Made by a program: the position numbers and the translations under genes. 11,710 bases of DNA, from contig CANKUF010000007.1 of assembly GCA_947486675.1 (NCBI GenBank), positions 1 through 11,710 of the forward strand, read 5' to 3'. Under the pieces are notes generated by a model. It was given only the letters and a program-made list of their open reading frames with translations. It did not search any database and was not told where the DNA came from. The stretch comes from Acidimicrobiaceae bacterium. GTDB taxonomy: Bacteria; Actinomycetota; Acidimicrobiia; Acidimicrobiales; Ilumatobacteraceae. Positions 7,370 to 11,704 of the stretch are shown here, one piece after another. Positions within the stretch are counted from its first letter, which is position 1. Every line of letters begins with the position of its first letter.

Positions 7370-8152
7370 CTACAGGCCAGCGCCGCGGGTTTCGTTCAAT
7401 GTTTTAGCCAAGGCATCGAGAGCGTCAGCATTGCGCAAGAGAAGTCTGTGCAGTTCATCTGGCTGCGTAACAGCGTGCTCAACAAGCGTCTGCCAATTTG
7501 CATTCGGCATGCCCAGGCACTTTCGAAGCGCGGTACTCAGCGCGCCTTCGGGATGTGCGTCGTAAGTCGACAACAACGTTTCAACATCGTGCTTTGTCAG
7601 CAATGCGCGAAGTTGTTCTGCATCAATCTTTCGCTGAATGTATGGCGAGAAGAATCCTTTGTATTTGTGGCGCAAACTTTCCAGTTGCCAATCGTCCGCT
7701 CGAACCTTGCCTCGACACAAAGTCGTTCCACAGTTGCAGTCAAATTCGTCGTAATCACTGGCATCGCTCATGGCGTAATCAAATGTCAGTTCCTCGCCAA
7801 CCGCAATGTCGCGCATGGCAACGATGGTGGTTGCGTTGCGCATGCCGCAGTTCGGTTCACACGAATGGTTAATTGAGTCGCCCGGCTCGCGCGAAGGTGG
7901 GCCAAGAAAAATGAGGTTTGTGTTTACCTGCAGCGAACGACTGCGTCGCTCGGCTTCGTACTGAGCAAAATCAACGCGTGTCAAAGCGGTACCGCCAAAT
8001 GTGGCCACTGAAGTTCCAGCGGGAATGATCGAGATGGCCCGACTGCCAAACCCGTGAGGAGGTGTGTCGAATGATTCGGCTAGGGAAGTAAGGAAGTTCT
8101 GCACGGCAATCACCAAAGAAACGAGGTTGAGGCGCGAGACATGCGCCAACAA
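7370..8152 (-). CDS. SET-domain protein (putative lysine methyltransferase) with post-SET cysteines
   Basis: This is up to 260 residues long with a SET domain at about 30-127, expected to transfer methyl from SAM to a protein lysine. Visible landmarks are the entry strand HGFGSRAI (33-40), GDSINHSCEPN (91-101, with N95 and H96 for SAM), and GEELTFDY (119-126, with Y126 the likely catalytic tyrosine). The post-SET motif C139, C141 and C146 (CNCGTTLCRG) together with C98 would bind zinc. The remaining 110 residues are helical and leucine-rich with no named domain. No ATG precedes the domain in frame; possible starts are TTG at 8152, 8149 or 8116 and GTG at 8113 or 8104, so the N-terminus is unsettled. 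The target protein is unknown. SURF1 follows 22 bases downstream. Confidence 0.87.
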   Translation of the reverse strand: MLAHVSRLNLVSLVIAVQNFLTSLAESFDTPPHGFGSRAISIIPAGTSVATFGGTALTRVDFAQYEAERRSRSLQVNTNLIFLGPPSREPGDSINHSCEPNCGMRNATTIVAMRDIAVGEELTFDYAMSDASDYDEFDCNCGTTLCRGKVRADDWQLESLRHKYKGFFSPYIQRKIDAEQLRALLTKHDVETLLSTYDAHPEGALSTALRKCLGMPNANWQTLVEHAVTQPDELHRLLLRNADALDALAKTLNETRGAGL

Positions 8153-8171
8153 CCTCTAACAGCGCCAACAA
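8143..8171. repeat. 10-bp direct repeat at the SET gene start
   Basis: GCGCCAACAA occurs at 8143-8152 and again at 8162-8171, 19 bases apart start to start. On the - strand it reads TTGTTGGCGC, and the first copy includes the possible TTG start codons of the SET gene. It could be a paired operator or a remnant of a small duplication; the sequence does not decide. Confidence 0.4.
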
Positions 8172-8216
8172 TGCCCGCTGCGCCGAATTGACGATATCGG
8201 CAGGTAGCCTGATCGG

Positions 8217-8256
8217 TGCAACGCCTTCCCGACTGCTCAGTCGGGCGGGCATTGCA
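8217..8256 (+). other. long imperfect hairpin ahead of the riboswitch
   Basis: The arms are TGCAA/TTGCA (8217-8221 with 8252-8256), GCC/GGC (8223-8225 with 8248-8250) and CCCGACT/AGTCGGG (8228-8234 with 8239-8245), closing a GCTC loop. That is 15 base pairs with small internal mismatches. No T-run follows, so it is not a typical terminator. If transcription starts near 8217, it would form the 5' cap structure of the metX leader; it could be an extra stem stabilising the RNA or the aptamer. Confidence 0.55.
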
Positions 8257-8260
8257 AGTA

Positions 8261-8334
8261 GTACATCACGAGCGACCAACAGGTCCGGCAACCGGGTTTT
8301 CCCACGGTGCCATTTCGCGAAAGCGAAAGATGTG
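8261..8334 (+). promoter_or_regulatory. SAM riboswitch aptamer, SAM-I/SAM-IV clan (compact variant)
   Basis: The conserved SAM-I core can be laid out base by base. P1 is TACATC (8262-8267) with GATGTG (8329-8334). J1/2 is ACGAG. P2 is CGACC (8273-8277) with GGTC-C-G (8282-8287, one bulged C) closing an AACA loop. GCAACC is at 8288-8293. P3 is ACCG/CGGT (8291-8294 with 8305-8308) plus GG/CC above a bulged A. GGTGC is at 8306-8310. P4 is TTTCGC/GCGAAA (8313-8318 with 8323-8328) with a GAAA loop. These segments match the SAM-I core order AUCA-AGAG, GCAACC, GGUGC-A and GGAAAGAU. P2 is only five pairs with a tetraloop, so the kink-turn and loop pseudoknot of classical SAM-I are absent, as in the reduced SAM-I/IV-type variants. 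Position 90 bases before metX, a methionine gene, agrees. SAM binding should lower metX expression. Confidence 0.82.
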
Positions 8335-8337
8335 GCT

Positions 8338-8416
8338 GCGCCTCTGGCGTAGCAACGGGCTGGCTCAGTTGGGTGAGCGTGACGAACTGCAAAAACGCAT
8401 AGTTTCGTTACAGAGG
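8338..8416 (+). promoter_or_regulatory. candidate expression platform sequestering the metX ribosome site
   Basis: CCTCTG (8341-8346) is perfectly complementary to CAGAGG (8411-8416), which contains the metX Shine-Dalgarno site. The same CCTCTG is half of a competing small hairpin, CGCC-TCT-GGCG (8339-8349). Only one can form at a time, giving a plausible on/off choice coupled to P1, which ends at 8334. No terminator-like hairpin with a T-run is present, so translational control is more likely than attenuation. This is inference from complementarity; a 5-6 base match to a purine-rich site is not rare by chance. Confidence 0.4.
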
Positions 8417-8417
8417 A
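8412..8417 (+). promoter_or_regulatory. metX Shine-Dalgarno site
   Basis: AGAGGA lies 6 bases before the ATG at 8424. Another ATG at 8420 is in a different frame and too close to the site. This fixes the metX start and is the likely target of the upstream riboswitch. Confidence 0.65.
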
Positions 8418-8423
8418 AAATGT

Positions 8424-9593
8424 ATGACCCGACATGATTATCCAGCAACAGGAGCATGGTTTCCTGGCATGCCTGTGGGCGGTCGCAAGTTTGCGCATTT
8501 TCCTGAAGATCGACCGTTCGCACTCGATGGCGGAAAAGTTCTCAGCAGCGTTTCCATTGCGTATGAATCGTGGGGAACATTAAATGCAGACGCAACCAAT
8601 GCAATTTTAATTTGTCATGCATGGACTGGTGACAGCCATGTAAGCGGTGCTGCCGAAGAAGGTAATCCCACACCAGGTTGGTGGGAAGGTGTCGTTGGTC
8701 CGGGTAAAGCAATTGATACCAACAAGTGGTTCGTGGTGTGCAGCAACGTCATTGGCGGTTGCCAAGGAAGTACTGGCCCTGCAACGGCACACCCTGAAGA
8801 TGGTCAGTTGTATGGTTCGCGTTTTCCCGTTATCACCATTCGCGACATGGTGCGCGCACAAGTGCGCCTTACCGACATGCTTGGTATTCGAACATGGCAC
8901 AGCGTTGTTGGCGGATCAATGGGCGGCATGCAAGTGCTTGAGTGGGCGGTCACATTTCCCGACCGAGTAAAAACCATCATTCCAATTGCCACATGTGCGC
9001 AAGCAACCGCACAACAGATTGCGTGGGGTGCAATTGGTCGTAGAGCGATTCGTCTTGACCCGAAGTGGCGCAACGGCGAGTATTACGACGCAGCAACTGG
9101 TGAAGGCCCGTGGGAGGGCTTAGCTATTGCACGCATGCTTTCGCAGGTCACGTTCCGCAGTGACAACGTGTTCAACGAGCGATTCGGTCGCGCACTTGTC
9201 GACATGGACGCCGACTACAACGGGCTTGGCTTGTGGGACAGGTTTGAGGTGGAGGGCTACCTGGATCATCACGGCGATCGACTTATTCGTCGCTTTGATA
9301 CAAATAGCTATCTCATCATCGGTAAAGCAATGGATCTGCATGACATTGCTCGTGGTCGCGGCACCCTCGACACCGCAATGTCGCGTATCAAAGCTCCAAC
9401 GCTTGTTCTGGGAATTTCCAGTGACATTTTGTATCCCACCTATCAGCAAAAGCAGATCAATTCGATGCTTACTGAAAAGGGGGTGGACTCAACATATGTT
9501 GAAATCGATTCTCCGCACGGTCACGACGCGTTCCTCATCAACTTTGATCAGGTGGGTGCGCCAATCAAAGCGTTTCTTGAACGAACGTTTTAA
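8424..9593 (+). CDS. metX: homoserine O-acetyltransferase MetX
   Basis: This alpha/beta-hydrolase-fold enzyme of 389 residues acylates homoserine using acyl-CoA, the committed step of methionine synthesis, in the cytoplasm. The catalytic triad is visible: nucleophile S165 in GGSMGGMQ (163-170), D334 in SSDILYP (332-338) and H367 in HGHDAFL (365-371). Other family marks are the N-terminal YESWGTLN (47-54), CHAWTGDSH (64-72), NVIGGCQGSTGP (108-119) and the lid helices around 215-300. Length equals typical MetX. The start is supported by AGAGGA 6 bases upstream. A SAM-type riboswitch in the leader indicates repression when SAM is plentiful. The acyl donor is presumed acetyl-CoA; MetX-like proteins can use succinyl-CoA or serine, which motifs alone cannot fully rule out. 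It ends tail to tail with the next gene, sharing TTAA. Confidence 0.95.
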   Translation: MTRHDYPATGAWFPGMPVGGRKFAHFPEDRPFALDGGKVLSSVSIAYESWGTLNADATNAILICHAWTGDSHVSGAAEEGNPTPGWWEGVVGPGKAIDTNKWFVVCSNVIGGCQGSTGPATAHPEDGQLYGSRFPVITIRDMVRAQVRLTDMLGIRTWHSVVGGSMGGMQVLEWAVTFPDRVKTIIPIATCAQATAQQIAWGAIGRRAIRLDPKWRNGEYYDAATGEGPWEGLAIARMLSQVTFRSDNVFNERFGRALVDMDADYNGLGLWDRFEVEGYLDHHGDRLIRRFDTNSYLIIGKAMDLHDIARGRGTLDTAMSRIKAPTLVLGISSDILYPTYQQKQINSMLTEKGVDSTYVEIDSPHGHDAFLINFDQVGAPIKAFLERTF

Positions 9594-11628: not shown

Positions 11629-11704
11629 GCGGACGTGGCTCAGTTGGTAGAGCATCACCTTGCCAAGGTGAGGGTCGCGAGTTCGAATCTCGTCGTCCGC
11701 TCCA
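11629..11704 (+). tRNA. tRNA-Gly (anticodon GCC)
   Basis: A complete 76-base cloverleaf is present. The acceptor stem is GCGGACG (11629-11635) with CGTCCGC (11694-11700). The D stem is GCTC/GAGC (11638-11641 with 11650-11653). The anticodon stem is TCACC/GGTGA (11655-11659 with 11667-11671) with loop TTGCCAA and anticodon GCC at 11662-11664. The T stem is GCGAG/CTCGT around TTCGAAT (11682-11688). The discriminator is T, as usual for bacterial glycine tRNA, and CCA is encoded (11702-11704). It reads GGC and GGU codons. All stems are intact apart from one G-U pair at the base of the T stem. Confidence 0.97.

Follow-up and report, generated by a model that had tools for sequence, protein, structure and literature searches.

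Upstream of metX, the gene for homoserine O-acetyltransferase, an Acidimicrobiaceae bacterium (GTDB family Ilumatobacteraceae) carries a compact leader element that resembles a SAM riboswitch with an unusually small P2 helix. The locus raises the question of which SAM riboswitch class the element belongs to, and by which pairing it could control metX. The whole 11,710-nucleotide stretch of DNA that was analysed (contig CANKUF010000007.1) is called the window here, and its positions are used throughout.

SAM-I carries a kink-turn in P2 and the pseudoknot PK-1, and SAM-I/IV shares PK-2, which joins L3 to the tail after P5. A crystal structure of SAM-I/IV was reportedly solved by Trausch et al. 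in 2014. According to PMC6890682, the structures of the SAM clan have one common pocket and differ in their braces: SAM-IV has P2a/P2b, PK-1 and PK-2 and no P4, with a PK-2 in which a strand inside P3 pairs with the 3' end after P5, whereas SAM-I/IV has an unsplit P2 and a P4 and lacks PK-1. A P2 without internal loop is also described for SAM-I/SAM-IV variants in PMC2864571.

A riboswitch of the SAM-I/IV lineage precedes metX

The cmscan search matched positions 8258-8369 of the forward strand to Rfam SAM-I-IV (RF01725) with 44.6 bits, 3.5 bits above the gathering cut-off of 41.1. This is well above what chance would give: the E-value was 1e-4 for the window against all of Rfam, and 1.7e-6 in the element's own 871-kb, 66%-complete assembly, where this was the sole RF01725 match; one lower-scoring match of the same clan was left out. 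Compared with 200 dinucleotide shuffles, the fold of 8258-8377 had a z-score of -2.2, and 6 of the shuffles were at least as stable.

P1 to P5 were all formed in the cmscan alignment, and all parts lie on the forward strand. P1 pairs ACAUC (8263-8267) with GAUGU (8329-8333) and is followed by J1/2, ACGA (8268-8271). P2 (8272-8286) is a hairpin without internal loop or kink-turn, built of four stacked pairs, GACC/GGUC (8274-8277/8282-8285), and an outer G8272-C8286 pair around the loop AACA (8278-8281). P3 (8287-8311) contains the GGCAACC/CGGUGCC core, a two-pair upper stem and the loop UUUUC (8297-8301); its L3 region (8294-8304) has 11 nt and holds no canonical PK-2 strand. P4 (8313-8328) is a 6-bp hairpin with a GAAA loop, and P5 (8335-8353), an 8-bp hairpin with the loop UCU, stands 3' of P1. 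The SAM-pocket core in P1/P3 was present in the alignment, with an AAGAG-type J1/2, GCAACC and GGUGC.

An earlier sequence-only reading had traced the SAM-I core, and P1, ACGAG (8268-8272), GCAACC (8288-8293), GGTGC (8306-8310) and P4 with its GAAA loop were all located, as was the short P2 closed by AACA. Its boundaries of 8261-8334 were too short, because P5 and a genus-conserved tail (8354-8378) are part of the element. It had also singled out the missing kink-turn and P2-loop pseudoknot. Both are indeed absent: PK-1, which joins the P2 loop to J3/4, is excluded by a J3/4 of a single nucleotide (A8312) and a P2 loop of AACA. As an oddity the point falls away, since this is the norm for SAM-I/IV in PMC2864571 and PMC6890682, and in the Rfam consensus of RF01725, P2 is likewise a small hairpin closed by four loop bases. 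Its further suggestion of a reduced SAM-I/IV or a still shorter form was right as to the RF01725 lineage, while the shortening lies in L3 and PK-2, which that reading had not considered.

The controlled gene (8424-9593, forward strand) was identified as metX by NCBIfam PRK00175 with 488.3 bits (cut-off 331), and 54 nt separate the end of the RF01725 match from its start. A Shine-Dalgarno-like AGAGG lies at 8412-8416, and immediately 5' of it a leader hairpin, GUGACGAACU/AGUUUCGUUAC (8379-8411), which showed no independent variation among relatives. No intrinsic-terminator-like site was found in 8150-8450, so metX is probably controlled by translation. Covariance model, gene and relatives together support a SAM-I/IV-type riboswitch ahead of metX, as first proposed. 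The element is a SAM-clan riboswitch of the SAM-I/IV lineage, of a known kind; because canonical PK-2 was not found, it is classed as a PK-2-less variant and not as a standard member.

The element is kept among relatives

Within the genus, 19 of 23 genomes, counting the window's own, gave an RF01725 match (18 above the cut-off); so did 117 of 150 sampled genomes of the family and 108 of 298 sampled genomes of the order. A script found a metX start behind 16 of the 19 genus elements; the other three loci (L024, L130, L136) reach contig ends. Four genus members gave no match: in G440, metX is preceded by a sub-threshold copy (32.1 bits); in G347, metX opens its contig, which lacks the leader; and no metX was found in G444 and G445. 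The G440 leader (L297) has a longer P2, and the Rfam cut-off misses at least this relative. metX proteins sharing 95-96% identity with that of the window were seen in an Ilumatobacteraceae bacterium, in bacterium bin92 and in a bin labelled 'acIV' Actinomycetes. A riboswitch could be parsed at 70 of the 80 metX loci taken from named genomes, with a wrong P2 at two of them (L260, L277); among the ten others, L215 and L218 have less than 100 nt upstream, and the remaining eight are not established absences.

The leader set held 214 loci with 6 duplicates, a subset of all matches in family and order. Two of the 208 loci were undissected (L011, L055), and eight further ones had no parsable P5 (L043, L057, L058, L060, L087, L096, L136, L158). 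Genus labels (g1 and the like) are anonymous, and L220, L224, L225, L228 and L232 were assigned to g173/g172 by likeness. A second RF01725 type, with an L3 starting GAGCC, was seen in g8 and g172 (L037, L092, L103, L116, L196), and G270, G331, G329 and G357, four of the five genomes concerned, had two RF01725 matches each.

All five P1 pairs were present in 16/16 non-redundant genus members, although pairing had also been used to place P1. P5 showed several pair types per position among relatives, and only this variety counts as evidence, since P5 was located through its pairing. Uniformity of the core is no independent proof either, the dissection pattern having required GCAACC and GGTG. A score so close to the cut-off, together with the failure to find PK-2, would fit a riboswitch that has decayed and lost its function as the genome was streamlined. 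Against decay, the helices were kept in every one of the 16 members while P5 changed its pair types, and the element recurs across the genus with the metX start behind it, which makes such a relic very improbable.

Canonical PK-2 is rare in the lineage of the window

In the window, no helix of at least 3 bp was found at the canonical PK-2 place (L3 with tail). This place was chosen after inspection of the relatives, and the PK-2 known for SAM-I/IV agrees with what they show, being present in most. The count covered 175 non-redundant sequences (70 + 51 + 54). In other families of the order, canonical PK-2 was present in 65/70, with helices of 5 bp or more in which GGACAC-like L3 strands match GUGUCC-like tail strands, and shuffled tails reached the PK-2 score in 3% of trials. 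Other genera of the window's family had it in 39/54 sequences, and the paired sequences vary both among genera and inside them (GGAAGC/GCUUCC, GAACGCC/GGCGUUC, GGAUCGCC/GGCGAUCC, GGUUCGCC/GGCGAACC).

Across six genera of the family, canonical PK-2 was found in only 3/51 sequences: 0/11 in the window's own genus, 0/10 in g178, 0/9 in g173, 0/2 in g9, 1/8 in g172 and 2/11 in g8. Two of the three exceptions (L196, L116) belong to the second type with an L3 starting GAGCC, and the third is L160. PK-2 was also sparse in a few other genera: g186 (0/3), g3 (3/10) and g185 (3/6). The own genus has an L3 of 11-13 nt, and the 9 nt of g178 are the shortest among the dissected sequences; in other families L3 measured 14-21 nt. 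The loss of canonical PK-2 in the lineage of the window is well supported.

An ordinary SAM-I/IV riboswitch whose PK-2 has merely moved and become shorter would account for the same absence, with CCCA of L3 (8301-8304) pairing to UGGG (8370-8373). This pairing is possible in 10/10 non-redundant genus sequences, with 6 bp in L024, L114, L121, L125, L126 and L129, 5 bp in L123 and 4 bp in L001, L124 and L135, and the genus conserves this part of the tail. However, the window type reaches only 4 bp and has a U-U at the next position; the pairing does not rise above shuffled tails (a mean fraction of 0.30 reached the own score), needs two bases already paired in P3, and competes with the metX start, which the same tail stretch fits at least equally well. 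We consider a moved PK-2 decidedly unlikely.

Three other pairings were tried and rejected. L3 with the Shine-Dalgarno region (UUUUCC 8297-8302 / GGAAAA 8415-8420, 6 bp) is lost in genus members with a different L3 or leader. The P5 loop CCUCU with AGAGG is perfect in the window and absent in near relatives whose P5 loops differ, such as L131 and L132, and was put down to chance. The apparent covariation of a shifted PK-2 in g173 (UUAGA/UCUAA, AAGAG/CUCUU) is broken by L220 and L225.

The tail complements P2 and the aptamer 5' half

Five of these genera, the window's own among them, mostly carry AAC-GGRYC-like tails directly after P5. In the window, the tail motif CGGGCU (8356-8361) complements GGUCCG (8282-8287), which is the P2 3' strand plus one G; the P2-tail pairing ends at GGUCC with an A-G mismatch. 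When the tail was compared with the last five P2 bases, at least 4 bp were formed in 36/45 sequences of PK-2-poor genera (13.7 with shuffled tails), compared with 5/53 in other genera (5.7) and 2/70 in other families (7.4). With the last ten P2 bases, 48 sequences gave 13.51 for the own tail, 9.87±0.32 for shuffled tails and 12.77±0.30 for swaps within the genus, and 0/200 trials reached the own value. The control groups also beat within-set swaps in this test (3/200 and 1/200 reached), which means that composition plays a part in the signal.

The duplex energy between the tail and the aptamer 5' half, from the P1 5' side to P2, gave a mean z of -2.2 in the own genus, where 73% of 11 sequences fell below -1.5 and 3/11 above it. 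The other four PK-2-poor genera had means of -3.1, -2.5, -3.3 and -2.7, the remaining genera of the family -1.5 and other families -0.17. For the window itself, the value was -28.0 kcal/mol, compared with -16.2 for shuffled tails. Three sequences with a GAG-type L3 (one from g8, two from g9) had a mean z of -0.03; g9 is without PK-2, yet without an anti-aptamer signal.

The P2 stem GACC/GGUC was invariant in 16/16 genus members and identical except for four G-U pairs in 51/51 sequences of the five genera, whereas the second to fourth P2 pairs were more variable in other groups. At the position adjoining the motif, the bases of P2 loop and tail could pair in 31/40 sequences, compared with 23.0 after permutation (0/2000 reached; 321/2000 when permuted within genus), through U-G, U-A, C-G, G-C and A-U. 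The second position paired in 25/40 (3/2000; within genus 58/2000), the third and fourth gave no pairing signal in the 40 sequences, and the mean run was reached by 30/2000 within-genus permutations. This set did not include L228, which has no tail motif. The covariation between P2 loop and tail is clear between genera and weak within them, and because genera share ancestry, the between-genus permutation numbers are not probabilities. Taken together, replacement of PK-2 by P2-tail pairing is suggestive. A P2 loop kissing a tail hairpin loop is compatible by eye as well, and is inseparable from the other partners of GUUGGG.

The tail also complements the metX start

Further along the tail of the window, GUUGGGU (8368-8374) complements metX codons 2-4 (ACCCGAC, 8427-8433), and its GUUGG (8368-8372) has an alternative partner in CCAAC of P2 (8276-8280). 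In 56 non-redundant leaders of the five PK-2-poor genera, tail nucleotides 4-24 after P5 complemented the Shine-Dalgarno/start region at 15.34, compared with 13.09±0.31 for swapped, 12.65±0.27 for cross-genus and 13.23±0.37 for shuffled regions, and 0/60 trials of each control reached the own value. The analyses of start region, P2 loop and tail, helices, anti-aptamer and ensembles omit sequences with an L3 of GAG type, and with them g9 and the second riboswitch type; the anti-aptamer energies show three of these sequences as a separate group.

The fit exceeded shuffles in the own genus, g173 and g8 (0/60 reached in each); it did not in g178 (17/60) and g172 (33/60). Swapping made no difference within the own genus (21/60 reached) because tail and first codons hardly vary there; the diverged member L129, whose first codons differ, still fits as AGUUGGG/CCCAACU. 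As controls, other genera of the family gave 15.24, with 14.16±0.30 after swapping (0/60) and 14.47±0.40 after shuffling (1/30), and other families 13.87, with 13.03±0.29 (0/60) and 14.00 (20/30). The swap test was positive in the control groups too and is therefore not specific, while the shuffle test separates other families, and other genera of the family less so. The tail complements the metX start region clearly in three of the five genera.

A possible switch between P2 and the metX start

On the simplest reading, the tail would be one strand with two exclusive partners, the aptamer or the metX start. With SAM, the aptamer including P2 would close, and the freed tail would cover the site where translation starts (OFF). 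In the absence of SAM, the tail could act as an anti-aptamer by pairing with P2 and the 5' side of P1, and the start site would open (ON). The switching strand would be P2 and not PK-2. We lean, with some reserve, towards a riboswitch of the SAM-I/IV lineage that would bind SAM and, by P2-tail switching, repress metX translation in this freshwater Ilumatobacteraceae (acIV-type) bacterium.

Computed folds were in part consistent with a two-partner tail. Without ligand, the OFF fold of the window (-78.8 kcal/mol) had an advantage of 5.3 kcal/mol over the anti-aptamer fold (-73.5), in which the 5' part of the leader hairpin also complements the P1 5' region, and native P2 had a probability of 0.99. 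Codons 2-4 were unpaired at 0.03 with the aptamer formed and at 0.79 in the anti-aptamer fold, as the proposed switch predicts. The openness of the Shine-Dalgarno sequence (0.96 OFF, 0.58 anti-aptamer) and of the AUG (0.72 OFF, 0.14 anti-aptamer) went the opposite way. The sign of the switch is accordingly drawn from pathway logic and the relatives, not from the energies of the window.

In the ligand-free ensembles of many relatives, the fold was split between native P2 and anti-P2, with a mean anti-P2 probability of 0.64 in g178, 0.38 in g8, 0.26 in g172, 0.18 in g173 and 0.13 in the own genus. High anti-P2 went with few tail-start pairs in L110 (1.00/0.0), L095 (0.63/0.2) and L192 (0.79/0.9), and L164 (0.80 with 14.2 pairs) and L098 (0.00/0.3) did not follow this trade-off.

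The dominance of native P2 in the window's ensemble could also reflect a SAM-I/IV aptamer whose tail does nothing but cover the metX start in the OFF state, the complementarity to P2 being a by-product of short GC-rich motifs. The weak P2-tail covariation within genera and the mildly negative anti-aptamer z in other genera of the family point the same way. Such a by-product should not peak in the genera without PK-2 and vanish in other families, as the tail complementarity to P2 and the 5' half does, nor does it account for a P2 stem nearly frozen in those genera; on balance we find it unlikely. The wider form of P2-tail switching, in which a freshwater Ilumatobacteraceae clade carries a SAM-clan riboswitch with neither PK-1 nor PK-2, the former PK-2 tail acts as the anti-aptamer strand, switching takes place in P2 and, in the SAM-bound state, the metX start is blocked by that tail, is put forward tentatively, as possible and still doubtful.

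Relation to known SAM riboswitches

The element is like SAM-I/IV (RF01725) in its GCAACC/GGUGC core, the order of P1-P5, the unsplit P2, the absence of PK-1 and the presence of P4, and this likeness extends to 16 dissected leaders of the genus upstream of metX. It differs in that the window has no canonical PK-2 between L3 and tail, its L3 is cut to 11 nt, and its tail complements the P2/P1 5' side and the metX start. It has the binding core of SAM-IV and, like it, a P5 hairpin 3' of P1, but its P2 is unsplit, P4 is present, and PK-1 and canonical PK-2 are absent. SAM-I has the same binding core and P4; unlike SAM-I, the window has a P2 of 4+1 pairs with an AACA loop and no kink-turn, no PK-1 (J3/4 of 1 nt), and a P5.

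Titles and abstract beginnings in the open-licence literature yielded no report of PK-2 loss in SAM-I/IV or of SAM riboswitches of this group. A lineage that seemingly needs neither PK-1 nor PK-2 would, if true, represent a minimal SAM-clan aptamer and show loss and replacement of peripheral RNA structure within one bacterial family, and it would allow the share of PK-2 in binding and switching to be tested directly.

Surroundings of the element

Divergent from metX, a SET-domain protein (Pfam PF00856, without an NCBIfam match) is encoded at 7370-8152 on the reverse strand. Between the two genes, directly 5' of the aptamer, lies an imperfect inverted repeat (8218-8255; GCAACGCC...CCCGACT...AGTCGGG...GGC.TTGC-like). 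The sequence CAGTTGGG was kept in the genus members L123 and L129 despite loss of the flanking GGCTC/GAGC pairing. The 11-mer GGCTCAGTTGG is common to the tail (8362-8372) and to the D arm of a tRNA-Gly (11637-11647) in the same window.
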